From Corallococcus macrosporus (lineage in GTDB: Bacteria > Myxococcota > Myxococcia > Myxococcales > Myxococcaceae), in assembly GCF_017302985.1 (NCBI RefSeq), contig NZ_JAFIMU010000007.1, positions 1,302,001 through 1,366,000 on the forward strand: a stretch of DNA of 64,000 nt, read 5' to 3'. Of the stretch, positions 13,765-54,938 are shown piece by piece; the stretch's first letter is position 1; each line of letters begins with the position of its first letter. The notes below the pieces were generated by a model. The model saw only the letters and a list, made by a program, of their open reading frames with translations, made no database searches and was not told the origin of the DNA. Made by a program: the position numbers and the translations under genes.

Positions 13765-14270
13765 GACCCGGCGAACACCGCCAGCACGACCAGGAACGTG
13801 AGGACGGGCACGGAGACAACGATGCCCCACACGGCCTTCGAAGAGATGGCTCGCAGCAGTCCGTAGGCGCCCAGCAGCGCCGCGGACAGGAGCCATCCGC
13901 CGAGGAAGCTGGCCACGAACACGAGCGGTGCAATCGCGTAGGACACCTCGCAGCTCGAGCCCAGGCACTCGCCGATTGGCAGTGGCAGGTGGAGTTCGTC
14001 GAGGACGACAGCCGTCGTGCCAAGCCCCGAGAGCAGTGCCACCGCCAACGACAGCCACCGCCAGGCCGCTCCGGAGAGCGTGAAGGTGCCCTCGGTCCGC
14101 CAGCGCGGCGCACGGCGCAAGGTGACGATGACGAAGACCAGCAGCACCAGGCCCAGCCCCAGGGACACCGGGAGCGCGGCACCGCGGCTGAGCGCCGCCG
14201 CCAGCATCGACAGACCGAAGAGGACGGAGCCAAGAATCAGGGCCGCGAAGAGCGCGAGACGTGAGGTCAT
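13761..14270 (-). CDS. Small membrane protein, MTSRL family
   Basis: A 169-residue protein with five probable transmembrane helices (about 5-25, 32-50, 72-92, 110-138, 145-167) and a short loop carrying two Cys (GECLGSSC). The start is taken at MTSRLALFAAL because the frameshifted relative at 15438-15931 begins with the same MTSRL-LFAAL motif. The family is unknown. Its 3' end overlaps the end of the SDR gene by 4 bases on the opposite strand. Confidence 0.65.
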   Translation of the reverse strand: MTSRLALFAALILGSVLFGLSMLAAALSRGAALPVSLGLGLVLLVFVIVTLRRAPRWRTEGTFTLSGAAWRWLSLAVALLSGLGTTAVVLDELHLPLPIGECLGSSCEVSYAIAPLVFVASFLGGWLLSAALLGAYGLLRAISSKAVWGIVVSVPVLTFLVVLAVFAGS

Positions 14271-14387
14271 CAAGGGCTGTTTATATGCCGGTTCCGCCGC
14301 GTCTCTCATCGGACAGCCCATCCCCTGAGACGATGGAGCGTTGAGAGTGCCTTGCAGTGACGTCGGTGGCCTTCCGGGGGGAAGGCC

Positions 14388-14858
14388 ATGGACGCGATAA
14401 AGCGGGCGGTATGCCTGGGGCTGCTCACGGGCTGCGCGACAGGCAGTGGAACCGTGGTGGAGGGAAGCCTCCAGCCCCGGCACTTCCGGTTCGTTACGGT
14501 CGTGAGCAAGACGGAACCAGGAGCCGGAGGCTGGCGGGAGGCCTGTCTTCATGTTCCGCTACGGCGTGACACGGGGGAGGTCTTCAGATGCACACTGGGT
14601 GTTGGGATGCCTGTGCATTCCACACGTTTTGGCGACATCCCGCTGGATCTGGCCCAGCGCATCTCAGCGGACTGCGCGAACCTGGCAGCCCAAACAGTAT
14701 TCAGCTCTACCGCTCCGGTCACGGCGCTTGGATTGGCATGCACCGAGTTCAGGGATGCATTCTCGCTTGCGCTCGGCGGAGCCATTGAGGGCTCGCGGGT
14801 GAATCAGGCGTGCCACGCGGAGACCACACCTGTACGGCCTCGGATCCAGAAGCCATGA
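14388..14858 (+). CDS. Putative lipoprotein, unknown function
   Basis: A 156-residue protein beginning MDAIKRAVCLGLLTGCATGS, with a short signal peptide and lipobox LTGC (Cys at residue 16). GGGGGAAGG directly precedes ATG 14388. The mature part has several Cys residues and ends in a Pro/Arg-rich tail. Visibly less GC-rich than its neighbours (for example around 14600-14780), which suggests relatively recent acquisition. Its stop overlaps the next start (ATGA), so the two proteins are probably made together. No family recognised. Confidence 0.62.
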   Translation: MDAIKRAVCLGLLTGCATGSGTVVEGSLQPRHFRFVTVVSKTEPGAGGWREACLHVPLRRDTGEVFRCTLGVGMPVHSTRFGDIPLDLAQRISADCANLAAQTVFSSTAPVTALGLACTEFRDAFSLALGGAIEGSRVNQACHAETTPVRPRIQKP

Positions 14859-15436
14859 CACCTTCAGCCGAGGAGTTGCTCACGATTGCTCGTCTCTACT
14901 GGGGTGCCGACGAAGCCTATCGCTTCCGTCAGGATCCCTCTCCCGAAGACCTCCGTTACGAGGCACTCTGGGCTGAGAAGACCAAGGAAAGGCCTCATTG
15001 GGGAGCCTTCGTCAGGAAGCTTCGCGAAGCGATCCCCAGCTGCGATGTCTGGGACTACGCGCCGGGCCTGGCGAACCCCAGCTTCGGCGCGCTCGTCTAT
15101 CCCCACCACGAGAAGATCATGCGCCGTCCCCAGAAGGTATGGGTGGTCGCCGGGTATCTCAGCATCCTGGCCCCGGTCTACACGGTGCACTGCGTCCGCA
15201 AGGAGTACCTGGGGAATCAGCTCCGCAGTGCGAAGGCCTTCCTCGGCCCCATCCCACTGGAACTGCAAGGCATCACGGACACGGTCGCCCGGCACATCGA
15301 AGCCGAGTTCGGCGCCACCGCGCTGCCTCTTGAAGTCGCGCAGACGCCTGTTCCGCTCTACGTCAACCTCATGAAGCCGCCGGAGACCACGCTCTTCCAC
15401 GCACTCTTCACTTCGGAACCCGGGAACATCCTCTGA
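14855..15436 (+). CDS. Uncharacterised cytosolic protein paired with the lipoprotein
   Basis: A 193-residue soluble protein with no signal peptide (MTPSAEELLTIARLYWGAD). Mixed alpha/beta composition, with aromatic-rich segments such as SCDVWDYAPGLANPSFGALV. ATG 14855 overlaps the lipoprotein stop, showing translational coupling. A lipoprotein followed by a small soluble partner resembles myxobacterial toxin/immunity or accessory pairs, but no known domain is recognisable, so this is only a hypothesis. It converges with the frameshifted membrane gene, with a single base between stops. Confidence 0.62.
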   Translation: MTPSAEELLTIARLYWGADEAYRFRQDPSPEDLRYEALWAEKTKERPHWGAFVRKLREAIPSCDVWDYAPGLANPSFGALVYPHHEKIMRRPQKVWVVAGYLSILAPVYTVHCVRKEYLGNQLRSAKAFLGPIPLELQGITDTVARHIEAEFGATALPLEVAQTPVPLYVNLMKPPETTLFHALFTSEPGNIL

Positions 15437-15437
15437 C

Positions 15438-15931
15438 TCAGCCCCCCAGCAGCATGAAGAGCACGAACCCGAAGACGGCCGTGCCCGCGAGCACGCCCTG
15501 CACGGCCACCGGCTTCAAGCCCTTCACCATGCCGACCGCCCCCAGCACCGCGGACGACACCAGCATCCCCAGCAGCAGCCCGGCCACGAAGGCCGCGGGC
15601 ACGTAGAAGATGAGCAGCGCACAGCCGCCCTTGCCGCAGGTCGCCGGCGTGGAGAAGTACGCGAAGACCTGCATCACCGCCCAGAGGGCCACAGCAGCCC
15701 TCCACCAATCGATCCGCTCCACCAGGCCCCCGAGGAGAGCTGGAACACTCCCTGCCGCCGCCATTGAGACACCTGCTGGCGGACCGCGATGAGCAGCCCC
15801 AGCAAAGCCGCGGCCGGCACCAGTCCCAGCACGAACGCCCCACCCACGCCGCGCAGCCCCGCCAGGGCGCACGCCATGAGTGCGACAGCACAGGAGAGCA
15901 GGGCCGCGAACAGGACGAGTCGTGAAGTCAT
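15438..15931 (-). pseudogene. Frameshifted relative of the MTSRL membrane protein
   Basis: The N-terminal frame, from ATG at 15931, reads MTSRLVLFAALLSCAVALMA and continues to FQLSSGAWW before running into a stop at about 15674. The C-terminal half (WWRAAVALWAVMQVFAYF, then CGKGGCALLIFYVPAAFVAG and three more hydrophobic helices) is in another frame ending at 15438. The two frames meet around 15700-15740. The total of 494 bases is not a multiple of three. Joined, they would match the length and helix order of the 169-residue protein at 13761-14270. Either a decayed paralogue or a single-base sequence error. Confidence 0.6.
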
Positions 15932-16117
15932 TCTGCGCAGCGTGACAAAGCCACCCCGTCCAGGACCACCCCGCCCCTGCCCCTCCGTGCCGACACAGTC
16001 CGCTGACGCAGCGGGTCGGGCGTTTTCCGCTCTGGCGGCAAGCCCTTTTTGATTTGGGCTGGCGGATTTCTCACGTTTTGCGACAAAGTTCGCCCCCTTC
16101 GCCGGAGGGGCGCGGAC
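15932..16117. promoter_or_regulatory. Divergent upstream region of the TonB receptor
   Basis: 186 bases between the membrane gene remnant and the receptor. A comparatively AT-rich patch (about 16046-16090, with TTTTTGATTTGGG and TTCTCACGTTTTGCGAC) is the likely promoter zone for the receptor. GGAGGGG (16104-16110) is the ribosome-binding site, 7 bases before GTG 16118. No inverted repeat of note was seen. Confidence 0.4.
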
Positions 16118-19100
16118 GTGCTCAGACGAATCTGTTTCATCCGTGGGCTGTGGCTCATGGTCGTGTTGTGGGGAGCCGGGGCGTGGGCCCAGGGCAACTC
16201 GGTCATCACCGGGACGGTCATCAGCGCGGATGACCGGCGGGCCCTGGCGGACGTGGTCGTCACCGCGACCTCGCCCCAGTTGCAGGGCGAGCGCACCGTC
16301 CTCACCGACAAGAGCGGCCTGTACCGCATCCCTCAACTGCCGCCGGGCACGTACATGCTCCGCTTCGACGCGAACGGCTTCACGCCCTACGCCCGGCCGG
16401 ACATCCTGCTGCGCATCGACCGCACCATCCGCTTCAACGCGGAGCTGGTCCCGGACACGATGAACATCGACTACACGGTCGTCGGCTCGCCGCCCAGCGT
16501 GGACGTGGGCTCCAGCGCCGCGGGCGTCACCGTGGACCAGGAGTTCATCCGCAACATCGCCGTCATCCGCCCCGGCACCAAGGGCTCCGCGTCCCGCTCC
16601 TTCGAGGGCCTGGCCGAGCTGGCCCCCGGCGCCACCGAGGACCGCTACGGCGTGAGCATCAGCGGCAGCTCGTCCCCGGAGAGCCAGTACGTGGTGGACG
16701 GCCTGTCCGTGAACGACCCCGGCGTGGGCACCCTGGGCACGCCCCTGTCCGTGGAGTTCGTCAAGGAGGTCAACATCATCACCGGCGGCTACATGCCGGA
16801 GTACGGCCGCTCCACCGGCGGCGTGCTCAACGTCGTCACCAAGTCCGGCTCCAACGAGTTCCACGGCTCCGTGTTCGCGAACTACGCGCCCGGCGCGTTC
16901 CAGACGTCCGGCAAGGAAATCCTCCGCGAGGGCAGCGTCATCTCCGCGCAGGGCAGCGCCCACAACCTGGGCGACTTCGGCTTCGACCTGGGCGGCCCGC
17001 TGCTCAAGGACAAGCTCTGGTTCTACGTGGGCGTCGCGCCGTCCTTCAATCGCATCCAGGTGGACCGCCAGCTCAGCAGCTACGAGCTGTGCTCGGAGGT
17101 GGACCCCGCCAACGGCTGCACCGCCGTGGGCGCGCGCCGCAAGGACCCCACCACCGGCTTCTCCCAGGTGTCCCCCATCGAAGGCAGCCGCGTGTCCCGC
17201 TTCGCGGACGAGCGCAGCGTGCAGTACCTGGGCAAGCTCACCTACAACTTCAACCCGGACCACAGCCTGTCCGTGTCCGTGTTCGGCACGCCGCGCTCGT
17301 CCGGCGGCAGCGGCAAGTACTCCTTCAGCGACGACGGCGAGCCGGAGGTGTGCTCCAGCCTGTCGTGCACCAGCTACGTGCAGGGCGCGTATGAGGCCAT
17401 CGCCACCCGCCGCAGCAACAGCGCCATGGACATCGTGGCGAAGCAGGCCTCGTCCTTCTTCGACAAGAAGCTGCTCGTGGACGCGACGCTCGGCTGGCAC
17501 CACCAGGCGGACTCCATCCTCCCGTCGGACGGCTCGGGCCTGGGCTCCGGCGAGGGCCTGTCCGCGAAGTCCAACATCGCCTGGCGCCGCACCCGCAACC
17601 CGGGCCCCCACACCATCAACGAGTTCGAGACGCTCCCGAACGCGAACGACTGTGGCAGCACGCCCGAGGAGCAGCGGCTGCGCTGTCCGGTGACGGCCTA
17701 CTCCACCGGCGGCCCCGGCACCATCAGCATCCAGCGGCTGGACCGCGTGCAGGGCAAGGTGATGGGCACGTACCTGCTGGAGGCCCTGGGCCACCACATC
17801 CTCAAGGCCGGCGCGGACATCGAGCGCATGAGCTTCTACAACAACCGCGCGCGCACGGGCCTCACGCCCTGGCAGGAGTGCACCGGCGGCGACTGCTTCT
17901 TCAGCCTCAACCAGTACGGCTACCTGGAGGGCCCGGACCAGCCGGTGTTCCTGGACAACAAGGAGGGCACCTCCACGTCCACCACCGTGGGCGGCTTCAT
18001 CCAGGACAGCTGGTCCGTGCTGGACAAGGTCACCGTCAACGTGGGCCTGCGCTACGACGTGCAGACGCTCTACGGCCTGGACGGCGAGGTGGGCCTGCAC
18101 CTGCCCAACCAGTGGTCCCCGCGCCTGGGCGTCATCTACGACCCGACGCAGAGCGGGCGCGCCAAGGTCTTCGCCAACTACGCGCGCTTCTTCGAGAACG
18201 TCCCCCTGGACATGGCGGACCTGTCCTTCCCGCAGCAGCAGCTGCTGTCCGCCACCTACGACGCGCCCCCGTGCAACCCGTCGCGCGAGGGCTCGCTGCT
18301 GGTGGACTGCACGCTGGACGCGAACCGACAGCCCATTGGCAACCGCGAGAGCCCCAACCAGCTCTGGGACGCGCAGGGCGGTGACCGCGTGCCGGTGGAC
18401 CCCAAGATCCGCGCGCAGTCCGCGGACGAGTTCGTGGTGGGCGGTGAGTACGAGCTGTTCGCCGCGAGCCGCGTGGGCGCCACGTACACCCGGCGCTACC
18501 TCAACGACGTCATCGAGGACATGAGCCGCGACGACGGCAGCACCTTCTTCCTGGGCAACCCGGGCAAGGGCTACTCGACGGACTTCCCGCTGGCGAAGCG
18601 CGAGTACGACGCGGTCAACGTCTACTTCCAGCGTGCCTTCACCAGCGGCTGGCTGGCCCAGGCCAGCTACACCTGGTCCACGCTGCGCGGGAACTACTCC
18701 GGCCTGTTCCGCGCGGACACCGGCCAGCTGTCCCCCAACCTCACGCGCGACTTCGACCTGGTGTCGCTCACCATCAACCGCGAGGGCCAGCTGCCCGGGG
18801 ACCGCACGCACGCGTTCAAGGTGTTCGCCGCGAAGGAGTTCATGCTGGGGTCGCGCACCAGCATCAACGTGGGCGGCAACTACCGCGCCCGCTCCGGCAC
18901 GCCGCTCAACTACCTGGGCGCGCACCCGCGCCGCAGCGGTTCGGAGACGTTCATCCTGCCGCGCGGCAGCGCGGGCCGGCTGCCCTGGGTGCACGGCGTG
19001 GACGGGCACGTGGGCGTCAACCAGCGGCTGGTGAAGGACTACGTCCTCACGGTGTCCCTGGACGTGTTCAACCTCTTCAACTTCCAGCAGTACACGGACG

Positions 19101-43550: not shown

Positions 43551-44579
43551 ATGTGCACCGACTTCCTGATCACCGGCAATGACACCCGCGCCGCTTCCGG
43601 GCCCATCGCCGTCAATGGCCGCAGCATGGAGTTCGGGCTCGACCTGAACTCCCAGCTGATGGTCCACGCCACGGGCGAGTCCTTCCAGTCCATGGGCCCC
43701 GGCGGCAAGCCGGGCCTGGCGTGGACGTCGAAGTATGGCTTCGTGGGCCTCACCGCCCTCACGGACAAGGTCATCGTGGACGGCCTCAACACGCAGGGCC
43801 TGTCCGTGGGCGCGCTGTGGCTGCCGGGCTCGGCGTATCCGGGCGTGAGCCAGCCCTCGCAGGCCCTGGCGCTGGTGGACTTCGTGAGCTGGGCGCTGGG
43901 CACGTGCGGCAGCGTGCCGGACGTCCAGAGCGCGCTGGCCAGCGTGCAGGTCTGGGAGGGCGACCTGATGGCGAAGCTGCTCCCGCTGCACTTCCCCATC
44001 CACGACGCCAAGGGCAACAGCATCGTGGTGGAGTTCACCGGTGGGCAGCTCCACGTCTACGACAACCCCGTGGGCGTCTGCACCAACGACCCGCCGTTCC
44101 CCCAGCAGCTGCAGAACCTGGGCGGCTACGCGAACCTCACGCCCTGGGACGCGAAGCCCACGGAGCTGGGCTCCGGCTCCTTCGCGCCCGCCGGCCACGG
44201 CAGCGGCATGCGCGGCCTGCCCGGGGACTCGACGCCGCCCGCCCGCTTCGTGCGCGCCGCGTACCTCAAGCAGTACTCGCAGCCGCTCATCACGGCGGCG
44301 GACGCCACCACGCTCGCCTTCCACCTGCTCAACACGGTGGACATCCCGGCGGGCACCAGCCGCTCCACGAACAAGGAGGGCAAGGACGCGCTGGACTACA
44401 CGCAGTGGGCCGTCGTGAAGGACCTGGTCGCCCAGACGCTGTCGGTGCGCTTCTACGCCAACCCCTGCGTGTACTCGGTGAACCTCAAGACGCTGGACTT
44501 CAGCGGCGCGGCCGGGAAGCCCTTCCCCGTGCCGGCCACCCCCACCAGCATCGACCTCACCTCGAAGCTGTCGAGCTAG
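43551..44579 (+). CDS. Choloylglycine hydrolase / penicillin V acylase-like Ntn hydrolase
   Basis: A 342-residue Ntn hydrolase starting M-C-T, so removal of Met exposes the nucleophilic Cys2 without a signal peptide. Conserved active-site residues appear as RSMEFGLDL (Arg/Asp pocket), YDNPVGVCTNDPPF (Asn) and a later Arg (PARFVRAAYLKQ). Family members cleave amide bonds of conjugated bile acids, penicillin V or acyl-homoserine lactones; for a soil predator the last two are more plausible than bile salts. Stands alone; convergent with the SWIM gene, 4 bases away. Confidence 0.9.
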   Translation: MCTDFLITGNDTRAASGPIAVNGRSMEFGLDLNSQLMVHATGESFQSMGPGGKPGLAWTSKYGFVGLTALTDKVIVDGLNTQGLSVGALWLPGSAYPGVSQPSQALALVDFVSWALGTCGSVPDVQSALASVQVWEGDLMAKLLPLHFPIHDAKGNSIVVEFTGGQLHVYDNPVGVCTNDPPFPQQLQNLGGYANLTPWDAKPTELGSGSFAPAGHGSGMRGLPGDSTPPARFVRAAYLKQYSQPLITAADATTLAFHLLNTVDIPAGTSRSTNKEGKDALDYTQWAVVKDLVAQTLSVRFYANPCVYSVNLKTLDFSGAAGKPFPVPATPTSIDLTSKLSS

Positions 44580-44583
44580 CGCG

Positions 44584-47460
44584 TCACAGGAGCTTCTTCG
44601 CCGCCTTGGCCAGGGCCCTGTCGTCGGCCACGGTGGGGAGCTCCAGCAGGCGCGCGGCCACGACCTTGCCCACCGCGGGGTGCACGGCCGCGACCTTGAG
44701 GTACGCCTCCGCGCGCGTGCGCAGGTCCACGTGTCCACTGGACCTGAGCACGCGCTCGAGCAGCTCCTTCGCCAGGATGGGCGGGTCGAAGGCCTCGAAG
44801 AGGCCGCGCAGCGCCTGCCGCTCCAGCACCTCCGGACGCGTCTCCGCCAGGTTCAGCGCGGGCCGCAGCAGGGCCAGCCCCAGCGTGCGCATGGCCTCCG
44901 CCACGACGCCGGGCTTCCACCCGTCCGCGAACGCCAGCAGCAGGGCCTCCGCGCCGCGCACGTCGCCCAGCATGCCCAGCGCGTACACGGCGTGCTTCGC
45001 CTCCGTGTCGTCGTGGCCGCGGCCCTGCACCATGTCCACGAACCGGTCGAGCACGTCCGCGTCCCCCATCCGGGCCAGCGCCTCGGCCGCCTCGCGCCGC
45101 ACCTCGCGCGCCGGGTCCGAGTGCAGCACCTGGCGCAGCACGGGCATCGCCACGGTGCCCAGGTCCGCCAGCATGGCCACCGCCGCCCCGCGCGCGTCCT
45201 TCGTCGTCTCCGACAGCGCGGCCTGCATCAGCGGCACCGCCTTGTCCTTGCGGCGCCGCGCCAGCTCCGCCACGGCCTTCTCCCCTGTCTCCCGGGCCTG
45301 CACGTCCTCCAGCGTCTCCCGGGCGAACAGGCGCAGGCCCATGTCGTGCCCCGCGCGCGTCAGCGCGTCCAGCTCGCGCCGGGCCTGCACGCCGCCCATC
45401 GCGCCCAGCACGCGGATGGCGGTGCGGCGCACCATGCGGCTGTGGCGCTCGTTCAGCGCGCCCCGCACGACCCCCAGCGCCTCCTCACCGCGCGCCGCCA
45501 CCGCGCGAGCCACGAAGGCGCTCGCCGAGCCGTCGCTCCACGCCGGGTAGAGCTCCCGCATCAGCGCGTCCGGCCCCAGGCCCGCGTAGTAGCGCGCCGC
45601 GTGCGCCGCCGCCTCGTAGCGCGTCAGCTCCCCGCGCGCCCGGCGCACCATCGCCTCGCCCGGGCTCAGCACCGCTTCCGGGCGGTGCACGTGGATGCTC
45701 GGGTGCGTGGGCACGGACTCCAGTCCGGCCATGTCCACCTGCACCGCGCCTGCAAGCCGCACCAGCGCGATGCCCAGCACCTGGTAGACCTTGATGAAGT
45801 CATCCAGCCGCTCGGCGGCGTCCGCCCGCTGCGCCAGCGCCTCCAGCAGCGCGCCCGGCTTCTCCAGCCCCAGCTCCTTCAGCCGGGACACCAGCGGCTC
45901 CACCGTCCGCGGCCCCAGCGCCGCCAGGCCGCTGGCGAAGGCATCCGCCAATTCGTCGCGCACCTCCGCGAGCGCGATGGCCGCCCGCGACGCACCCGCC
46001 GCCCGCGCCGCGTCCGCCCACCCGCTGCGGGGCAGCGCGCTCGGCGTCGCGGGGGCCCGGACACGGTTGCGCCGCCGGGGCGCCACGGGCGCGTCCGAGG
46101 CGCGCGCCAGCGGACGCAGGTCCAGCCCTTCCGGCGTCCGCACCACGACTGCGGAGGGGAACAACGTCGGCAGCGCCGCCTCCAGGCCCACGTCCCCCAG
46201 CACCGCCAGGAGCTTCGCGTCCTCCAGCGCGCTGGCCAGCGGCTCCTCCAGCGACGGGTCCGCGGGCAGGAAGAGGCCGCGCCCCGTGCCGTCCACGAAT
46301 TGCGAGCGGGCCCCGCTGGCGAGCAGCGTCTCCACCCGCACGGACACCGGCAGCAGGTCCGGCGCGAACACGTCCTTGCGGTGCTCCTGGAAGGCCGTCA
46401 TCACCGCGCTCACGTCCGGCAGCGCCACCTCCACCAGCCGCTCCAGCGCCGCCCGGTCCACCGACGGCGCGTCCTTCCACGACTCCAGGTCCAGCCGGTG
46501 CGGGGCGAAGCCCGGGTACTGCCCGCCGTGCGCACCCTGGAGCACGGCGCCCGCGTGGCTGTTCTTCGGCGCCACCGTCTTGAGGCTGGCGGGGAGGATC
46601 TGCTTCTCGCTGTAGTGCCCGCCCGACCCCAGGTCCACGAAGCGGCTCTCGCGGACCATGAACCGGTCCGGCGTCACCCTGGAGGAGAACGCGTACTCCA
46701 CCAGCCGGAGCCCCTCCACGGGCGCGCGGTCCTTCTTCGTCCACGTCTTGCCGATGAGCTCCTCGACGTGGCGGGGCTCCAGCGCCTCACCGCCCAGGTG
46801 CTTCTCCACCTTGCGCGCGGTGAGCAGCATGTCCGCCACCAGGTCCGCGTACACCGGCGCCTCGAAGGTGCCCGTGCGGGCCGCCGCCGCGTCCAGCAGG
46901 CCCGCCAGCTCCACCGCCCGTGCGGCCAGCCGCCGCAGGCCGTTGGCCCGGAGCGCCTCGCCCAGCGCGCGCACCTGCTCCGGCCGCTCGGCGCCCAGCG
47001 ACGCCACGCCGGACAGGCCCAGCTCGCGCACCAGCGTGGACACCTGCGCCACGCCGGCCTTCATCAGGTCGCCGGTCTCCGCCTTGCCCTTCTTCACGCT
47101 CTTCCTGGCGCCGCCCGAGCCGGCCGGAGCCACCGGGGCCGACTCCGCCGTCACGAAGGCCTGCGGCGCCCGGGCCCACGCCACCAGCAGCGCCGCCGCG
47201 TGCTTGCAGAAGGGGCGCGAGCGCGCCGCCATGCACGAGCACCGCCCCTTCACGTCCGAGCGCGCCTCGCCGAACACCAGCGAGACCTTGTACGGCGTCG
47301 CCCCGGAGCCCGACGCGTCCGCGAAGAGCCGGTTCTCGTAGCGCGACAGATTGCTGAGCTGCTTGCCGTCGAACAGCTCCGCGCCCTTCGCCAGCTCCGC
47401 CTTGTCGCTGATGATCTCCGTCATTCCGCCCATCCCGATGACGGGCCGCACCTCAGCCAT
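44584..47460 (-). CDS. SWIM zinc-finger and HEAT-repeat protein (YehQ-like)
   Basis: A 958-residue protein, last gene of the four-gene MoxR/VWA operon. The SWIM zinc finger is C74-x-C76-x8-C85-x-H87 (CSCMAARSRPFCKH). A long middle region without known domain follows; the C-terminal ~330 residues are HEAT-like repeats (REVRREAAEALARMGDADVL; TEAKHAVYALGMLGDVRGAE). The HEAT half may be a lineage-specific extension, making this longer than the E. coli counterpart as I recall it. The start overlaps the VWA stop by 8 bases. SWIM fingers bind nucleic acid or protein; the role here is unknown. Confidence 0.85.
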   Translation of the reverse strand: MAEVRPVIGMGGMTEIISDKAELAKGAELFDGKQLSNLSRYENRLFADASGSGATPYKVSLVFGEARSDVKGRCSCMAARSRPFCKHAAALLVAWARAPQAFVTAESAPVAPAGSGGARKSVKKGKAETGDLMKAGVAQVSTLVRELGLSGVASLGAERPEQVRALGEALRANGLRRLAARAVELAGLLDAAAARTGTFEAPVYADLVADMLLTARKVEKHLGGEALEPRHVEELIGKTWTKKDRAPVEGLRLVEYAFSSRVTPDRFMVRESRFVDLGSGGHYSEKQILPASLKTVAPKNSHAGAVLQGAHGGQYPGFAPHRLDLESWKDAPSVDRAALERLVEVALPDVSAVMTAFQEHRKDVFAPDLLPVSVRVETLLASGARSQFVDGTGRGLFLPADPSLEEPLASALEDAKLLAVLGDVGLEAALPTLFPSAVVVRTPEGLDLRPLARASDAPVAPRRRNRVRAPATPSALPRSGWADAARAAGASRAAIALAEVRDELADAFASGLAALGPRTVEPLVSRLKELGLEKPGALLEALAQRADAAERLDDFIKVYQVLGIALVRLAGAVQVDMAGLESVPTHPSIHVHRPEAVLSPGEAMVRRARGELTRYEAAAHAARYYAGLGPDALMRELYPAWSDGSASAFVARAVAARGEEALGVVRGALNERHSRMVRRTAIRVLGAMGGVQARRELDALTRAGHDMGLRLFARETLEDVQARETGEKAVAELARRRKDKAVPLMQAALSETTKDARGAAVAMLADLGTVAMPVLRQVLHSDPAREVRREAAEALARMGDADVLDRFVDMVQGRGHDDTEAKHAVYALGMLGDVRGAEALLLAFADGWKPGVVAEAMRTLGLALLRPALNLAETRPEVLERQALRGLFEAFDPPILAKELLERVLRSSGHVDLRTRAEAYLKVAAVHPAVGKVVAARLLELPTVADDRALAKAAKKLL

Positions 47461-48670
47461 GACGCTCCCCCTTCTTGTCGTTGGACGCGAGCAGCGGCGC
47501 CAGGTCCTGGTTGCGCATCACGCGCTCCACCACGTCCACCAGCCTGCGGGGCGTGCACCCGAAGCACGGAATCCCCAGCGCGGTGAGCTGCTCCGCCATC
47601 GCGTGGTCGTATGACGGCCGGCCGCTGTCCGACAGCGCCAGCAGGCACAGCACCTTCGAGCGCGAGTCCACCAGTTGCCGCAGCCGGGCCACCAGCTCCT
47701 CCGCGTTGCCGCCCTCGTACAGGTCGGTGATGAGGATGAAGAGCGTCTTCTCCGGCCGGCGCACGTAGTGCTCCTGCGCGTAGGCCACCGCCCGGTTGAT
47801 GTCCGTGCCGCCGCCCAGTTGCGCGGAGAAGAGCACCTCCACCGGATCCGCCAGCACGGGCGTCATGTCGACGATCTCCGTGTCGAACAGCACCAGGCTG
47901 GTCTTCAGCACGTCCAGCGACGCGAAGATGGCCGCCATCACGGAGCTGTACACCACGCTCTCCGCCATGGAGCCGGACTGGTCCACCACCAGCGTCACGT
48001 CCCACTCGTGGTGACGGCGCTGGTTGGGCCAGAAGTAGAAGCGCTCCGGGATGAGGCGCTTCCGCTCCGAGTCCCAGCCCTTCAGGTTGGAGCGGATGGT
48101 GCGGCGCCAGTCGATGTTGCGCGCGATGGGGATGGGGCTCGTCCGGTCGCGCCGGAGCGCGCCCAGCACCGCCGTGCGCAGCGGGGACTCCAGCTTCTTG
48201 CGCAGGTCCTCCACCACTTCGCGGATGATGGCGCGCGCGGTGTCCTTGGCCTGCTCCGGGATGAGCCCCCGGGCGCTCACCAGCGTCGTCACCAGCTCCA
48301 GGTTCTTGTCCAGGAAGGGCAGCGTCTCCGGCTCGAAGAGCAGCTGGGTGAGCCCCTTCTTCTCGATGGCGTCCTTCTGCACCAGCGCGATGACGTCGTC
48401 CTGGAAGAAGTCGCGCAGCGCGCCCAGCCACTTGGGCAGGTAGGGCTTGGAGCCGCCGCGCCCCGCGGAGCCCCCGCCGTAGACGAAGGAGAGCGCGTCA
48501 TCCAGCCCCTCCAGGTCGTCGCCCTTCAGGTCCACCGTGTCCGCGCTGGCGCCCAGCGCGCTCAGGGAGGGACACGAGCCCGTCTTCTCCGCCTCCGGGC
48601 CCAGCGCCAGCCGCCAGCGCAGCAGCGCGTCGCGGTCCTTCGGGTCCAGGTCCTTGGGGTCCACGCTCAT
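47453..48670 (-). CDS. VWA domain protein (YehP-like)
   Basis: A 405-residue cytosolic protein. The N-terminal ~200 residues are helical; the C-terminal von Willebrand A domain has an intact MIDAS: DQSGS (D230, S232, S234), the Thr of GGGTDINRA, and the Asp of LITDLYEGG. VWA proteins paired with MoxR ATPases act as metal-dependent adaptors. It overlaps DUF5682 upstream by 4 bases (ATGA) and the SWIM gene downstream by 8. Confidence 0.9.
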   Translation of the reverse strand: MSVDPKDLDPKDRDALLRWRLALGPEAEKTGSCPSLSALGASADTVDLKGDDLEGLDDALSFVYGGGSAGRGGSKPYLPKWLGALRDFFQDDVIALVQKDAIEKKGLTQLLFEPETLPFLDKNLELVTTLVSARGLIPEQAKDTARAIIREVVEDLRKKLESPLRTAVLGALRRDRTSPIPIARNIDWRRTIRSNLKGWDSERKRLIPERFYFWPNQRRHHEWDVTLVVDQSGSMAESVVYSSVMAAIFASLDVLKTSLVLFDTEIVDMTPVLADPVEVLFSAQLGGGTDINRAVAYAQEHYVRRPEKTLFILITDLYEGGNAEELVARLRQLVDSRSKVLCLLALSDSGRPSYDHAMAEQLTALGIPCFGCTPRRLVDVVERVMRNQDLAPLLASNDKKGERHG

Positions 48671-50985
48671 AGCAGGTCATCCAGGTCGTCGAGCGCCTTG
48701 CCCAGGTCCGCGCTCAGGTCCTTCAGCGTCGCCTTGTCCTTCTCCTCCAGCACCGCCTTCACCGCGCGGCCCTTGTCCTTCAACTGGCGCACGCCCATCA
48801 CGTTCTCCATCAGGTAGCGGCGCTCCGTGGCCCCCAGCGCGCCCAGCGCCCGGCGCAGCACCGGCAGCGTCTGCCGGAAGCGCTCCGGCTCCACGCTGAC
48901 GAGGAAGTCGTCCAGGGCCTTCACCACGTCGCGGCTCTTCACCAGCACCAGCGCGTTCACCTGGAGGAAGCCCTCCAGGTACGCCGCCGCGTCCGCGGGC
49001 TCCACCGCCTGCGACAGCCGCCGGCCCACCTCCAGCGCCACGTCCGCCTCCGCCAGCTCGCGCGCCAGGTACAGCAGGCCCGTGGCCAGCCCCGACGTGG
49101 CGGGGTGCACCGCGTGGCTCTCCATCACCCCGCGCGCCTCCACGAACCAGCCCGCCTTGTCCGCGCGCGGCTGGGACAGCGCCACCTCGTGCAGCGTGCG
49201 CAGCGCCTCCAGCACCGCGGGCACCGCCTCCGGAGCGCAGGCGCTGGCGTCGCGCACGCGCAGGAGCGCCCGGTTGAAGGTCTTCTCCCCCAGCGAGGCC
49301 ACCGCCTCGTCGCCCACGTCCGAGTGCGCGCGCGAGGTGCCATAGGCCATCAGCCCCGACAGCGCCCGTGCCGCGGACGCGAGCGACGGCAGGTCCGCGT
49401 CCGTCGCCGCGTGCGCGTCACAGACCTTGAGCGCCTGGGCCACCGTCTGGGAGCAGCCGGTGATGACGGACTCCAGCAGCACGTCCGCCGCCTCGGCCGT
49501 CGTCCTCGCCTGGGTCAGCCGCTCCTGGAGCACGCGCGTCGTCACGGCCTCCAGCGAGTCGCCCAACACAATCTTCTCCACCAGCGCCACGTCCGTGGAC
49601 GGCGTCCACTGCGCCTGCCACGCCTCGCGTACGCGGGTGAGCGCCGCGTAGCCGCCGGCCTCCGCCTCCCCGCCCTGCTTGCGCGACGAGCCCGTGCCGG
49701 ACAGCGTGGCGTACGGGATGCCCGCCACGCGCAGCCGGTGGAGGAACACGGAGGAGCCCACCTCCACCGGGTTGTTGAGCCGCAGCGTGAACGTCTCCGG
49801 GCTGTCCGTGCGCGGCAGCCGCCGCTCGCCCACCTCACGCCAGAACTCCGCCTGGAGCGAGTTCTGCCCGATGCGGCTCGCCACCTGCCCCACTTCATGG
49901 CCGACGACGCTCTTCCACAGGAAGCCGTCCACGTGCGTCGCGTCCCCGCGGCACAGCGTGGCCACCGTCGCCTCCCGCAGCTCGTCCAGGCCCGGGGCGC
50001 TCTTCTCGCGCAGGTCCGACAGCGTCACCGCCAGCCGGTACGCCTCCAGCACGTCCGACAGCGACGCGGAGAAGCCGCGCATCCGCAGGTGCGCCGCGAA
50101 GTCCAGCAGCACCTCCAGCGTGGCCCGCCGGAAGTCGCAGTTCGCCTCGTGGGCCTTCTGGTAGAAGTGCGGCGCCCGGTTGCCCGCGCCGTATCCCAGT
50201 TGCTCCGCCAGCCGCGGGAAGCTGTACGGAATCACCGTCACCGCGCACGGCCCGGGCGCGGGCAGCTTCGCCTCCTCCTGGGGGTCCACGTCGCCCGCCA
50301 GGAACGCCGCGGTGTGCGCCGCGCCCGCGACGACGGCCACCTTCTCCGGCGCCACGCCGCCCGCCACCACCTCCAGCACCTTGCGCGCCATGAAGGCGTC
50401 GCGCTGGCGGTGGTAGGGCGACCGGGGCCCCGCGTTGACCACGTCCGCCCAGGCGATGAGCACCGGACGGAACTGCTCCGGGCTCCAGTCCGGCGCCTCG
50501 AAGGCCGCCTCCCAGAACTCCTCGAAGGAGCGGTGTCCCTGCGAGCGCGCGAACGCCTCCGTGAGCGGCACGGCCTCGTCGGGGACGGGCGTGCTCCCCT
50601 CCATGGACTCGGACTCCGACTCCACCCCCAGCGCGGGCGGCGCGCGGTCCACCGCGAGGCTGACGCCCACCGGGATGTCGATGAACTCCGCCCGCGCGCC
50701 GTTGGCCCGGGCCCACTTCAGCGCCTGGTACTCCGGCGAGTAGGCCGCGAAGGGCCACAGCGACGAGGACGGGGTGCCATCCGTGCGGTAGCCCAGGATG
50801 GCCACGGGCGGCCGGGTCTGCGCGTCGCACAGCACGTCCACCAGCCCGGTGGCGTCACAGGGTCCCTCCACCAGGACGACGGTGGGCTTCACCCGCTCCA
50901 GCCACTTCTGGAGCACCGCGGTGGTGCGCGGCGAGTGATGACGGACCGGGAAGTGCTGCACCCGGCGGAGCAGTTCCAGGTCCAT
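48667..50985 (-). CDS. DUF5682 family protein (YehM-like)
   Basis: A 772-residue protein. The N-terminus has HFPVRHHSPRTTAVLQKWLE and VVLVEGPCDATGLVD, and a VAVVAGAAHTAAFL motif near 240, which recall TraB/PrgY-like alpha/beta folds; the rest is helical and acidic, ending in DLSADLGKALDDLDDLL. ATG 50985 shares its A with the MoxR gene stop (TGATG), so it is translationally coupled. A start 45 bases upstream would lie inside the MoxR gene and is less likely. The family is uncharacterised but regularly found with MoxR and VWA genes. Confidence 0.85.
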   Translation of the reverse strand: MDLELLRRVQHFPVRHHSPRTTAVLQKWLERVKPTVVLVEGPCDATGLVDVLCDAQTRPPVAILGYRTDGTPSSSLWPFAAYSPEYQALKWARANGARAEFIDIPVGVSLAVDRAPPALGVESESESMEGSTPVPDEAVPLTEAFARSQGHRSFEEFWEAAFEAPDWSPEQFRPVLIAWADVVNAGPRSPYHRQRDAFMARKVLEVVAGGVAPEKVAVVAGAAHTAAFLAGDVDPQEEAKLPAPGPCAVTVIPYSFPRLAEQLGYGAGNRAPHFYQKAHEANCDFRRATLEVLLDFAAHLRMRGFSASLSDVLEAYRLAVTLSDLREKSAPGLDELREATVATLCRGDATHVDGFLWKSVVGHEVGQVASRIGQNSLQAEFWREVGERRLPRTDSPETFTLRLNNPVEVGSSVFLHRLRVAGIPYATLSGTGSSRKQGGEAEAGGYAALTRVREAWQAQWTPSTDVALVEKIVLGDSLEAVTTRVLQERLTQARTTAEAADVLLESVITGCSQTVAQALKVCDAHAATDADLPSLASAARALSGLMAYGTSRAHSDVGDEAVASLGEKTFNRALLRVRDASACAPEAVPAVLEALRTLHEVALSQPRADKAGWFVEARGVMESHAVHPATSGLATGLLYLARELAEADVALEVGRRLSQAVEPADAAAYLEGFLQVNALVLVKSRDVVKALDDFLVSVEPERFRQTLPVLRRALGALGATERRYLMENVMGVRQLKDKGRAVKAVLEEKDKATLKDLSADLGKALDDLDDLL

Positions 50986-52100
50986 CAGCCCCTCAAGAGC
51001 TTCTTGCTGGCGGTGTACAGCTCCTTCCACGGGCCCGTGCGGCCCTTGGCCACCGTCTCCATGTACTCGCGCAGGGCCTTCACGTCGTCCTCCTGCTCCT
51101 TCACCACCGCGCCCACCAGCGACGCCGCCAGCTCGTGCGACGTCACCGTCCCGGAGCCGAACTGCTGCGCGAGGATGGAGCTGTTGAACAGCACGCTGAT
51201 GGCCTCCGCCGTGGACAGCACCGCTCCCGGCGTGCGCACCTTCGTCTTGCCGTCCTTCGTCACGCCCTTGCGCAGCTCATGGAAGAGCGTCAGCAGCACG
51301 CGCGACAGCTCCTCCGGCGGCGGCACGCCCACCTGGTAGTCCGTGCGCAGCTCCGCCTCGCGCTTGGTGACGATTTGAATCTCCTGCTCCAGGTCCTCCA
51401 CCACCGGCACGGTGACGAAGTTGAAGCGGCGCTTGAGCGCGGCGCTCATCTCGTTGACGCCGCGGTCGCGCGTGTTCGCGGTGGCGATGAGGTTGAAGCC
51501 GCGCTGCGCGCTCGTGATCTCCCCCAGCTCCGGCACCGACACCTGCTTCTCCGACAGGATGGAGATGAGCGAGTCCTGAATCTCCGGCGACGTGCGCGTC
51601 ACCTCTTCGAAGCGGGCGAACTTGCCCGTGCGCATGGCGCGCAGGATGGGCGACGGCACCAGCGCTTCCGGCGTGGGCCCCTGCGCGAGCAGCAGCGCGT
51701 AGTTCCACGAGTACTTGATGTGGTCCTCGCTGGTCCCCGCCGTGCCCTGCACGACGAGCGCGGACGTGCCGCTGATGGCCGCGGACAGGTGCTCCGACAG
51801 CCAGCTCTTCGCGGTGCCCGGCTCGCCCACGAGCATCAGCGCGCGGTCCGACGCGAGCGTCGCGATGCACACCTGGATGAGCCCCTTGTCGCCCACGTAC
51901 TTGGGCGTGATGGCCACGCCGCCCACGGGTTTGGGGCTGCCCAGGATGTACGTCTCCACCGCGCGCGGCGACAGCGCCCAACCTGGTGGGCGGGGCTTGT
52001 CGTCATGCGCGGCGAGGGCGTCCAGCTCGTTCTTGTACTTCGCTTCGGCAGGCAGTCGGATGTCCGGCATGAGCTGCACGCTATCCACTCGGTCTGACAT
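50985..52100 (-). CDS. MoxR-like AAA+ ATPase (YehL-like)
   Basis: A 371-residue AAA+ protein, first gene of the four-gene operon. Walker A is GEPGTAKS (92-99); the Walker B strand reads ARFEEVTR, with Glu-Glu instead of the usual Asp-Glu; sensor 1 is LIATANTRD; arginine-finger region GVNEMSAALKRRF. MoxR ATPases remodel protein complexes together with VWA partners, and the third gene provides one. Start ATG 52100; a weakly conserved 75-base gap separates it from the VOC gene stop. Confidence 0.9.
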   Translation of the reverse strand: MSDRVDSVQLMPDIRLPAEAKYKNELDALAAHDDKPRPPGWALSPRAVETYILGSPKPVGGVAITPKYVGDKGLIQVCIATLASDRALMLVGEPGTAKSWLSEHLSAAISGTSALVVQGTAGTSEDHIKYSWNYALLLAQGPTPEALVPSPILRAMRTGKFARFEEVTRTSPEIQDSLISILSEKQVSVPELGEITSAQRGFNLIATANTRDRGVNEMSAALKRRFNFVTVPVVEDLEQEIQIVTKREAELRTDYQVGVPPPEELSRVLLTLFHELRKGVTKDGKTKVRTPGAVLSTAEAISVLFNSSILAQQFGSGTVTSHELAASLVGAVVKEQEDDVKALREYMETVAKGRTGPWKELYTASKKLLRG

Positions 52101-52175: not shown

Positions 52176-52574
52176 TCAGGCCGTGGTGCCCGGCGCGTGC
52201 ATCCATTGGACGAGCTGGACGATGACGCCGTTCGCGTCCGCGACCTGGAAGTAGCGCTCGCCCCACGCCTCCGTCTCGATGGGCGTCAGGATGTCCACGC
52301 CCTCCGCCTGGATGCGCGCGTATTCCGCATCGATGTCCTCCACGACGAACGCGACGATGAGCCCGTCCGCCCGGCGCGTCTTGAGCGACTCCGGCTTGAG
52401 CGTCTTCAGGCCCGTGCGCAGGTAGATGACGTTGAAGCCCACGTCGGGCCGGCTCAGCGACACGAAGCCGTCCGCGGCCATGGCCTCCGTGAAGCCGAAG
52501 TGGCGCTTCAGGAAGGCCGCGGAGGCCTCCACGTCAGCGACGTTCAGGGACACGGCGGAAGCGGTGACTCGCAT
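52176..52574 (-). CDS. VOC family protein (glyoxalase/bleomycin-resistance fold)
   Basis: A 132-residue protein with paired beta-alpha-beta modules: SAVSLNVADVEASAAFLKRH at the N-terminus, AFVVEDIDAEYARIQAEGVD in the middle and AWGERYFQVADANGVIVQLV at the end, which holds the last metal-ligand position. It may bind or modify a small hydrophobic compound. It is divergent from a TetR gene, with a palindromic operator between, so it is likely the repressor's target. Confidence 0.87.
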   Translation of the reverse strand: MRVTASAVSLNVADVEASAAFLKRHFGFTEAMAADGFVSLSRPDVGFNVIYLRTGLKTLKPESLKTRRADGLIVAFVVEDIDAEYARIQAEGVDILTPIETEAWGERYFQVADANGVIVQLVQWMHAPGTTA

Positions 52575-52666: not shown

Positions 52667-53479
52667 ATGGCATCGCACCGCAGCAGCATGGGAGACCCCA
52701 CCCGGACGCTGGAGTTGTTGTGGCGGGAGTCCCTGCCCGCGAAGGGCCAGCGCGGTCCGAAGCAGACGCTCACCGTCACCGCCGTCGTCGAGGCGGCGGT
52801 GGCGCTGGCGGACGCGGAGGGGCTGGACGCGGTGACGATGCGGGCGCTGGCGGGGAAGCTGGGCATCGCGCCCATGGCCCTCTACACCTACGTGCCCGGG
52901 CGGGCGGAGCTCATCGACGTGATGCTCGACACGCTCTACGCGGGCATGGCCCGGCGCAAGCCGAAGGCCCGGGACTGGCGCTCCCGCCTGGAGGCCGTGG
53001 CGCACGACAACCGCGCCCTGTTCACCAAGCACCCGTGGCTCGCAGACGTGTCCACCACGCGCCCACCCCTGGGCCCGGGCCAGTTGGCCAAGTACGAATA
53101 CGAGTTGCAGGCCCTGGAGGGCGTGGGCCTGGACGACGTGGCCCAGGACGCCGCGTTGACGTTCGTGCTGGGCTTCGTGGAGTCCTGCGCCCGCGCGGCG
53201 TCGGACCAGCGCGCCACGCGGCTGGAGTCACAAATGAGTGACGGGGCCTGGTGGGAGGCGAACGCGCCCCTGCTCTCGCGCATGTTCGATGCGGAGCGCT
53301 ACCCCACCGCGTCCCGGGTGGGCTCCGCGGCGGGCTCGGCGCATGGTGCGGCGTACGACCCGGACCACGCCTATGCCTTCGGCCTGGAGCGCATCCTGGA
53401 CGGGCTGGCCGTGCTCATCGAACGGCCGCGCGCGCCCCGGGCCCCGGTCCGGAAGACGCCCCGGAAGCGCGGCGGCTAG
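52667..53479 (+). CDS. TetR/AcrR family regulator
   Basis: A 270-residue repressor with TetR_C_1-type C-terminus. The helix-turn-helix is VTMRALAGKLGIAPMALYTY, followed by VPGRAELIDVMLDTLYAGM. The C-terminal ~20 residues are basic (RPRAPRAPVRKTPRKRGG), an extra DNA-contact tail. ATG 52667 is used. It probably represses itself and the VOC gene through CGTACG repeats. Confidence 0.9.
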   Translation: MASHRSSMGDPTRTLELLWRESLPAKGQRGPKQTLTVTAVVEAAVALADAEGLDAVTMRALAGKLGIAPMALYTYVPGRAELIDVMLDTLYAGMARRKPKARDWRSRLEAVAHDNRALFTKHPWLADVSTTRPPLGPGQLAKYEYELQALEGVGLDDVAQDAALTFVLGFVESCARAASDQRATRLESQMSDGAWWEANAPLLSRMFDAERYPTASRVGSAAGSAHGAAYDPDHAYAFGLERILDGLAVLIERPRAPRAPVRKTPRKRGG

Positions 53480-53493
53480 GTCCTGCCCCCTCA

Positions 53494-53522
53494 ACTTTCC
53501 GAGTCCTTCTCAGCTTTCCGAG
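53494..53522. repeat. Direct repeat CTTTCCGAG x2
   Basis: CTTTCCGAG occurs at 53495-53503 and 53514-53522, starts 19 bases apart, just after the TetR gene and about 90 bases before the ferritin-like gene. Possible activator site of that gene; could be chance. Confidence 0.35.
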
Positions 53523-53609
53523 CGGCTCGGACAGGGGCCCCTCCTGGGGAGAGAGGCTGGCATCCGCATTGCTCAGGGCCCGGACACACCCTCTGCCTCG
53601 GAGTCGTCC

Positions 53610-54938
53610 GTGAACATCCATCGACTGCGCCGTCTCTTCTCGCGGGCCCTGCACGCGTCGCTCGCCACGCCCCTGGTGCTGGCGGGCTGTGGCACGGAAG
53701 GGGGCGTGAGCACGACGGACTATTCGGAGATTGAGTGCACGGACCGGGGTTTCGCCGTCAGCGACCTGACGCTGATCCCGGCGCCGGACTACGTGCAGCT
53801 CCGCTACGTCAGCCGCAACATGGGCCAGCCCCCCGACTCCTACACCCAGGCGTCGTCCTCCGGTCAGGCGTGCGCGACGGCCACCGACGTCCCCGCGTGC
53901 CAGGAGGCGCTGGAGAACGCGAGCGTCACCGAGGGCTTCCACCACGTCTGCCTGGACTTCTGCACGGACGCCTTCCTGGTGACGACCCGGGGCGACGAGG
54001 TGAAGACGCACGCGACGCTGGCGGAGCTCCAGCAGGTGCTGGGCACCATCGACACCGGGCAGGAGGCGGTGCTCAAGACCTTCGCTGCGGGCTACTCCCT
54101 CCTCTGCGGGAACAAGGAGCACGGCGCGGTGAAGCGCAACGACGACGGCAGCTTCAACGTCATCGCCACGAAGGGCTACGCGTGCGGGCCGGGCACGGAG
54201 CTGACGCAGCACGTGGTGAAGGTGACCGCCTCCGGCGAGGTCCAGGAGCTGGAGAAGCGCGTCCTGGAGAAGGGGGACCCCAACTGCAGCATCGGCCGGC
54301 GGCCGGTGGGGCTCCAGGTCGCGGAAGCCTGCGAGGCGCCCGAGGCGCTGGGGCGCTACTTCGCGGACGCGGCGCACCTGGAGGCGGCGTCGGTCCATGC
54401 GTTCCTGCGGCTGCGCGACGAGCTGGAGCTGCACGGCGCGGACGTGGGCCTCCAGGACGCGGCTCGCCGCAGCGCCATGGAGGAGGTCCAGCACGCCCGG
54501 GTGACGGACCGCCTGGCGCGGCGCTTCGGCGGCACGCCCCAGCGTCCGGTGGTGGAGGACCTGCCGCCGCGCTCGCTGGTGGAGGTGGCCCTGGAGAACG
54601 CCGTGGAGGGCTGCGTGCGGGAGACGTACGGCGCGCTGCTCGCGCACCACCAGGCGCTGCACGCGCGGGACCTGGAGGTGCGCGAGGCCATGGTCCGCAT
54701 CGCGGAGGACGAGACGCGGCACGCGGCGCTGTCGTGGGACATCGACCAGTGGGCCCGCCCGCGCCTCTCCACCCAGGAGCGTGAGGCCCTGCGCGAGGCG
54801 CAGAAGCGCGCGGTGGCGCTCCTGCGGGAAGAGGTCCTGGTGCCGCTGGACGCGAGCATCATCACGGAGGCGGGCATGCCCACGCCCGAGGCGGCCCTGG
54901 CGCTGCTGGACACGCTGGAGCAGGACCTCTGGGCATGA
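53610..54938 (+). CDS. Lipoprotein with C-terminal ferritin-like domain
   Basis: A 442-residue protein. GTG 53610 starts a signal peptide ending in lipobox VLAGC. The first ~240 residues hold several Cys and have no known domain. The C-terminal ~180 residues are a ferritin-like four-helix bundle with diiron-type ligands: HLEAASVHAFLRLRDELE, EEVQHARVTDRLARRF (ExxH), VEGCVRETYGALLAHHQ and EDETRHAALSWDID (ExxH). A surface or periplasmic ferritin-like lipoprotein is unusual; iron handling or a redox reaction is possible. Confidence 0.82.
   Translation: MNIHRLRRLFSRALHASLATPLVLAGCGTEGGVSTTDYSEIECTDRGFAVSDLTLIPAPDYVQLRYVSRNMGQPPDSYTQASSSGQACATATDVPACQEALENASVTEGFHHVCLDFCTDAFLVTTRGDEVKTHATLAELQQVLGTIDTGQEAVLKTFAAGYSLLCGNKEHGAVKRNDDGSFNVIATKGYACGPGTELTQHVVKVTASGEVQELEKRVLEKGDPNCSIGRRPVGLQVAEACEAPEALGRYFADAAHLEAASVHAFLRLRDELELHGADVGLQDAARRSAMEEVQHARVTDRLARRFGGTPQRPVVEDLPPRSLVEVALENAVEGCVRETYGALLAHHQALHARDLEVREAMVRIAEDETRHAALSWDIDQWARPRLSTQEREALREAQKRAVALLREEVLVPLDASIITEAGMPTPEAALALLDTLEQDLWA

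Follow-up and report, generated by a model that had tools for sequence, protein, structure and literature searches.

Four genes on the minus strand of the window, a 64,000-nt stretch of the Corallococcus macrosporus genome (9.8 Mb), were found to form a compact operon at positions 44584-52100. In the order of transcription they encode a MoxR-type AAA+ ATPase, a DUF5682 protein, a CoxE-type VWA protein and a SWIM-HEAT protein. All features given below lie on the minus strand unless stated otherwise. The genes overlap by 1 nt (MoxR and DUF5682, TGATG), 4 nt (DUF5682 and VWA, ATGA) and 8 nt (VWA and SWIM-HEAT). The sequence-only reading from which we started had described four overlapping genes with intact Walker A, metal ion-dependent adhesion site (MIDAS) and SWIM motifs, and the coordinates, overlaps and motifs were all found.

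The MoxR protein (50985..52100, 371 aa) belongs to the YehL subfamily, based on AAA_5 (133 bits, E 9.7e-39) and on BLASTP to E. coli YehL. Its Walker A motif is GEPGTAKS (residues 92-99, 51804..51827), and the pattern was present in 76 of 76 aligned MoxR rows. The motif ends in Ala where the classical one has its last Gly; the search pattern accepted both. A Walker B-like motif, RFEEVTR (residues 163-169, 51594..51614), followed a relaxed pattern in 76/76 rows and a strict one in 71/76. The VWA protein (47453..48670, 405 aa, YehP family) matched VWA_CoxE (PF05762; 166.8 bits, E 6.5e-49), and the Pfam scan listed no domain beyond it. The MIDAS motif DxSxS (DQSGSM, 47966..47983) was conserved in 73 of 73 VWA rows. 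GGGTDI (47798..47815; GGT[DNE] in 72/73 rows) and ITDLY (47717..47731; last-Asp pattern in 46/73 rows) would complete the site.

The DUF5682 protein (48667..50985, YehM family) comprises 772 aa from the ATG at 50985 and matched PF18934 with 407.5 bits (E 1.5e-121). A longer open reading frame (ORF) starts from the GTG at 51030; the aligned homologues start at the ATG. In the predicted model of the protein (predicted local distance difference test score, pLDDT, 86.9; predicted template modelling score 0.80), roughly the first 275 residues form an alpha/beta domain, and the remainder is mostly helical. The N-terminal domain (residues 1-275, 50161..50985) has seven strands in the model, and the secondary structure assigns residues 280-772 (48670..50148) to the helical C-terminal region.

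The SWIM-HEAT protein (44584..47460, 958 aa) matched HEAT_2 (66.9 bits, E 2e-18), and its predicted model had a pLDDT of 86.5. Its SWIM motif is CSCMAARSRPFCKH, with the Cys and His residues invariant in 33 rows; the Pfam SWIM match itself reached 17.7 bits, under the cut-off of 19.6. A fold search with the model returned HEAT solenoids and ZSWIM8 at a root mean square deviation of 26; the ZSWIM8 match was not used.

Judged by sequence, the operon is the myxobacterial form of the E. coli yehLMPQ set. In K-12, yehL, yehM, yehP and yehQ (b2119-b2122) stand in the same order as in the window, as had been proposed before. By BLASTP, the MoxR protein matched YehL (44.7% identity over 358 columns, 2e-94), the DUF5682 protein matched YehM (26%, 2e-25, with PF18934 matched by both) and the VWA protein matched YehP (36%, 2e-70). 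Hence, the proposed homology held for these three proteins, and it extended over nearly their full length. It did not extend to YehQ. The SWIM-HEAT protein gave no significant BLASTP match to YehQ and 1.9% in hhalign with the single YehQ sequence, which counts against our interpretation; the two share the CxCx(n)CxH motif and the position in the operon. YehQ also differs in build (614 aa, two SWIM motifs and no HEAT match), and the E. coli set differs from that of the window in having yehF (WGR) and yehI (DUF4132) upstream.

Of 5426 complete E. coli genomes, 5301 gave a match to the yeh set; in 5162, a single place covered no less than 80% of the query. The places were almost entirely chromosomal (5320, and 2 on plasmids). 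The deletion table in PMC10652928 describes a genome-reduced E. coli strain which lacks yehLMPQ; the set is therefore dispensable in that strain. A strict LexA box (CTGTN8ACAG) was not found in the 26-kb E. coli yeh region, and the idea that the E. coli set serves the SOS response was rejected on these grounds. In the literature searched, there was no mention of DUF5682 or DUF5691, and no study of a yehLMPQ-type set was among the matches listed. A 2002 paper on SWIM may mention MoxR neighbours.

We checked how constantly the genes occur together. With 15 aligned DUF5682 proteins as the query, relatives were found in 588 of the 591 genome-contig stretches examined, which is a lower bound on their number, and the best 80 were kept as loci. 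These loci were ranked by similarity, and gut Bacillota are abundant among them. The sample covers what we take to be Myxococcota, Chloroflexota, Bacillota, Verrucomicrobiota, Bacteroidota, Spirochaetota, Actinomycetota and Pseudomonadota. Under a strict rule, a MoxR gene was directly upstream of DUF5682 in 72 of the 77 loci with room for it. Of the five exceptions, L042, L043 and L097 do have MoxR, which overlaps an ORF whose start had been set too far upstream; L092 and L106 do not. In 70 of 75 loci, a VWA gene followed within 2 kb; the exceptions were L096, L100 (3.4 kb away), L102 (present, but with an over-long ORF call), L104 and L106. Among the 54 loci that extended 4.5 kb to either side, 52 had a SWIM gene (misses: L096 and L106). 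The spacing was mostly tight: a gap of at most 20 nt or an overlap was seen in 63 of 72 MoxR-DUF5682 pairs and 52 of 70 DUF5682-VWA pairs. As the same gene set recurs across phyla, the operon is not a chance arrangement.

Joint presence was surveyed in 195 genomes of the phylum (MoxR at E ≤1e-60, VWA at E ≤1e-30). DUF5682 was over the cut-off in 60 genomes, YehL-type MoxR in exactly the same 60 and VWA in 59. The DUF5682 match of the remaining genome (G018) is itself partial and lies on a short contig. A further DUF5682 match, weak and partial, was found outside the 60 (G028). In the genus of the window, the module was present in all 16 genomes searched. The set was also complete where linkage was lost. 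In Capnocytophaga (L106), DUF5682 stands alone, and MoxR, VWA and SWIM lie on three other contigs, giving four contigs in total. The scattered parts were 81% (MoxR, to Myroides), 75% (VWA) and 49% (SWIM) identical, and the SWIM gene is followed by two HEAT-like genes. Similarly, the VWA and SWIM proteins missing at L096 are encoded elsewhere in the same genome. Parts that are kept together when unlinked most likely depend on each other. Given the homology, the K-12 gene order and linkage rather than scatter, the earlier proposal that the four products form one machine is still the best reading.

The arrangement of the SWIM and HEAT parts varied between loci. In Bacillota and Bacteroidota, the usual order was SWIM (median 489 aa), HEAT-like (median 628 aa), MoxR, DUF5682 and VWA. 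The three core proteins are as in the window, but a separate SWIM gene and a separate HEAT gene precede MoxR, where the window has one fused gene downstream of VWA. The SWIM half of the window protein (residues 1-455, 46096..47460) is the counterpart of the separate Bacillota SWIM gene: residues 5-404 matched the Bacillota SWIM proteins with 99.7% in hhalign (E 1.2e-25, 390 columns). The HEAT half (residues 478-958, 44587..46029) is the probable counterpart of the Bacillota HEAT-like gene. Here, hhalign gave 24-28%, whereas DUF5691 reached 4-5% and each of four unrelated families ≤1.1%; the match may reflect general HEAT likeness. The protein looks like a fusion of two genes which elsewhere are separate and adjacent. 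Such a fusion suggests that the separate SWIM and HEAT-like proteins touch.

The HEAT-like cluster was present in 60 of the 80 loci, with more than one copy in six and up to four copies (one copy in L079 is short). Four copies were seen in L069 and three in L064. Another form has DUF5691 (PF18944) at the position of the HEAT-like gene (SWIM, DUF5691, MoxR, DUF5682, VWA), with the core as in the window; it was seen in five myxobacterial loci, Amycolatopsis, Chitinophaga and an alphaproteobacterium. The 20 myxobacterial regions comprised ten with the window layout, five with the DUF5691 layout, four with the E. coli layout and one (L230) that could not be assigned. Three of the four regions with the E. 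coli layout (L229, L231 and L232) carry yehF-like (WGR) and yehI-like (DUF4132) genes upstream, which is also the E. coli arrangement. Hence, yehF and yehI may belong to the E. coli-type system.

A further layout bears on the possibility that the module acts in protein quality control, together with ClpAP and the N-degron pathway. At L062, L073, L083, L091 and L107, a ClpS-family gene comes right after VWA, followed by a ClpA-family gene, and an Aat-family gene is found in four of these five loci. These genes were assigned by sequence clusters, and their Pfam or NCBIfam identity was confirmed on L083. The five DUF5682 proteins, however, are 82-95% identical and represent one Lachnospiraceae lineage, and no such genes were found in the other 75 loci, some of which are incomplete. 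We regard this reading as the slimmest of those considered here. In L083, where this block lies at 13473-16794, the gap between VWA and ClpS was 17 nt.

The N-terminal domain of DUF5682 carries a set of candidate active-site residues. His16 lies in the first motif, PVRHHSP (codon 50938..50940), and Glu40 in LVEGP (codon 50866..50868). The RDAFMA motif (50386..50403) holds Arg195 and Met199, and the VVAGAAH motif (50314..50334) holds Gly221 and His224 (GxxH). All six residues were invariant in 56 of 56 rows. His16, Glu40, Arg195 and His224 were thus kept from Corallococcus to Bacillota, Bacteroidota and Actinomycetota, and they were also found in all 15 rows of another alignment, which includes YehM. 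In the predicted model, His16 is just past strand 1, Glu40 in strand 2 and His224 just past strand 6. The set of residues agrees with that described for TIKI proteins, with catalytic His and Glu on the sheet plus a conserved basic residue (PMC6254334). The spacing of 29 from Arg195 to His224 equals that from Arg to the second His of a TIKI endopeptidase (PMC6254334).

In hhalign, the domain matched TraB with 62.8% when 33 TraB rows were used and with 37.3% for the first five TraB rows. Taken apart, the myxobacterial and the other DUF5682 rows gave 63.1% and 52.0%. The RxxxM...VVxGxxH stretches, and with them both the RDAFMA and the VVAGAAH motifs, were aligned in register. The background from 34 neighbourhood families and three reversed profiles was ≤2.7%. 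DUF5682 has the His/Glu/Arg-Met/GxxH pattern in common with TraB/PrgY/GumN and the TIKI superfamily, next to its profile match to TraB. It differs in its long helical C-terminus, its linkage to MoxR and VWA, and a Pro for Gly in motif 1 in the lineage of the window. We conclude that the domain is likely, but not proven, to be an enzyme of the TraB/TIKI superfamily and not simply an adaptor. This assignment, which is likely on the basis of sequence comparison, is new in this analysis. It also modifies the earlier view that the SWIM-HEAT and DUF5682 proteins are both target-binding parts: given the invariant residues and the TraB profile match, DUF5682 looks more like an enzyme.

Several observations weigh against the assignment. 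The TraB match spans 30 to 37 columns at 52-63%, which is under the usual level of proof. The domain matched ChaN with 0.9% and 7.8% (in a third query, ChaN was outside the eight printed rows) and the Ere-like family with 2.3%, 1.1% and 2.0%. Among accepted relatives, hhalign gave 47.7% for TraB-ChaN, 13.5% for ChaN-Ere and 1.3% for TraB-Ere, so the test is weak even there. No TraB/TIKI structure was among the 50 matches listed in the whole-model fold searches, where the helical half filled the lists; the listed structures were mostly helical solenoids matching residues 415-770. A profile search of Protein Data Bank sequences with the DUF5682 alignment gave two matches, both at chance level. 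The spacing of His16 to Glu40 is 24, compared with 28 in the TIKI endopeptidase (PMC6254334). The 56 rows contain 38 invariant columns, and the candidate catalytic residues are four of those.

Moreover, the first GxxH motif of the TraB/TIKI superfamily carries a Gly. In DUF5682, this position is Gly in 36 of 56 rows and Pro in 20, including the window. The signature is thus present only in part, and this, together with the many further columns that are equally invariant, would also suit a TIKI-like fold without catalysis. DUF5682 would then be a ligand or haem scaffold like ChaN, and the operon a sensor or a chaperone. A TIKI-fold protein without the catalytic motif and residues does exist (described in PMC6254334). 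The two His residues, Glu40 and Arg195 are nevertheless invariant in all 56 rows across phyla, and present in YehM. We consider the non-catalytic alternative improbable.

Taken together, we propose that the four proteins form one machine in which the ATP-driven MoxR-VWA pair switches a likely TraB/TIKI hydrolase, DUF5682, on targets held by the SWIM-HEAT protein (probability roughly 0.45). The pairs NorQ-NorD, CoxD-CoxE, CbbQ-CbbO and RavA-ViaA combine a MoxR AAA+ protein with a MIDAS-bearing VWA protein as in the window, and the VWA protein of the window is of the CoxE family. NorQ and NorD are described to engage through a VWA finger that enters the pore of the MoxR ring; a linker of NorD is then remodelled by the motor, which enables metal insertion (PMC13036017). 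The MIDAS residues are required for client activity and not for ring binding (PMC9976466). By analogy, the MoxR ring of the window would grip the VWA domain and remodel or gate its partner, and a pull of the ring on VWA may open or place the DUF5682 active site. The MIDAS of the VWA protein would dock DUF5682 or its target. DUF5682 itself would hydrolyse a peptide, ester or similar bond via His16, Glu40 and His224 with Arg195, the role of each residue in the predicted active site being tentative. The SWIM zinc motif and the HEAT solenoid may select the target.

The same analogy supports a second reading, in which the MoxR-VWA pair is a chaperone that opens DUF5682 or another client for the insertion of a metal or cofactor, in the way that NorQD serves nitric oxide reductase and CoxDE serves CO dehydrogenase. 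The CoxE family membership of VWA fits, and DUF5682, which could be the insertion client itself, is flanked by MoxR and VWA at almost every linked locus. MoxR-VWA proteins have been described in target remodelling as well as metal insertion (PMC13036017). Neighbouring genes add to this. A glyoxalase-family gene (52176-52574, minus strand) stops 75 nt upstream of MoxR in the window, and such a gene was upstream of the module in six of eight Corallococcus loci. In E. coli and the three myxobacterial loci mentioned above, yehF and yehI or their kin are upstream, and PMC8533742 reports suggestions linking WGR/DUF4132 proteins to molybdate.

Other observations count against it. None of the 12 myxobacterial regions outside Corallococcus had a glyoxalase match, so this gene is not a fixed part of the module. 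The flanks were sampled by drawing 70 of 256 near genes and 70 of 304 far genes, of which 68 and 47 were used. ORFs at or near the locus end were left out; three dropped far ORFs (two from L118, one from L054) did not touch the end. No Pfam family occurred in more than three of the 68 near genes. SWIM, HEAT or DUF5682 partners are also not known for the insertion pairs. In the paper with the molybdate link, moeA and moeB were unchanged (PMC8533742). We consider insertion rather unlikely. The data do not separate a working DUF5682 enzyme from a metal-loaded client; the enzyme is preferred because the extra target-binding parts nearly always co-occur.

The remaining alternative is an anti-phage or other conflict system, a role raised by the sequence-only reading. 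MoxR-vWA conflict systems have been described, with CoxD-CoxE systems as their reported origin (PMC7159879), the HEAT-like gene is duplicated in some loci, and the distribution in the phylum is patchy (60 of 195 genomes). The ternary conflict systems (VMAP, iSTAND, FtsH, beta-propeller) share MoxR and VWA with the window. In contrast to them, Pfam scans of the window operon proteins listed no VMAP, iSTAND/STAND, FtsH or beta-propeller partner, and the bpMoxR profile on the window MoxR reached 21.8 bits, below its cut-off of 27. Neither YehL nor SWIM occurs in the main text of PMC7159879.

Weak PADLOC matches exist. For the SWIM-HEAT protein, they were HEAT-ARM_XIII and PDC-S62 (residues 18-99); elsewhere, they were mad2 (a neighbouring ORF), HEAT-ARM_XIII (Bacillota HEAT-like) and mad8 (Bacillota MoxR). 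The matches of the core proteins were partial, with a best E of 5e-9, and we read them as shared domains. The suggested survey for defence islands found no enrichment: at E 1e-10, no PADLOC family occurred in more than two of the 68 near genes or more than two of the 47 far genes of the samples, and the flanks were no richer in such families than the far genes. No relatives were among the 56 pattern matches in viral contigs. Plasmid records were matched in 36 of 72,556 cases, several of them chromosome-sized. One of 50,697 phage records was matched (L120:1-14207), an unverified and unannotated 14-kb contig from human faeces named 'Bacteriophage sp.'. Its MoxR-DUF5682-VWA block was 61-82% identical to a Lachnospiraceae locus. 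As the block resembles gut Bacillota, the contig is probably bacterial.

The locus was also largely syntenic in the eight Corallococcus loci read, with a methyltransferase-like neighbour in 8/8, an M20 peptidase-like one in 7/8 and the plus-strand gene at 43551 in 5/8. The nearest DUF5682 proteins were those of Corallococcus, with 97% identity to C. carmarthensis. On account of this synteny, the E. coli prevalence, the weak PADLOC scores, the flank samples and the main text of PMC7159879, the proposed conflict role was not supported, and we consider it very unlikely. A defence role was set aside on E. coli prevalence and the viral, phage, plasmid and PADLOC tests.

Two plus-strand ORFs lie near the operon. 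The ORF at 43551-44579, the neighbour counted above, converges on the operon end. The ORF at 53238-54938 (566 aa, without a Pfam match) matched at least two pieces of the upstream flank in six of the eight Corallococcus loci. It possibly represents repeated related genes in these flanks.

A wider form of the proposal is tentative, and we regard it as possible but doubtful. DUF5682/YehM would be a new TraB/TIKI hydrolase that is active only inside a machine gated by an AAA+ protein. The MoxR ring and the VWA subunit would power it, and the SWIM zinc module plus an exchangeable helical arm (HEAT, DUF5691 or perhaps DUF4132) would bring the target. If true, hydrolytic machines under ATP control would form a class not described so far, conserved in almost all E. 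coli and across eight or more phyla of bacteria. It would add a hydrolase to the clients of MoxR-VWA motors. It would also explain why DUF5682 and DUF5691 stand beside SWIM proteins in several phyla. The yeh cluster is near-universal in complete E. coli genomes and carries no function in the annotation, and the four predicted active-site residues of one likely enzyme subunit make it assayable in a laboratory strain.

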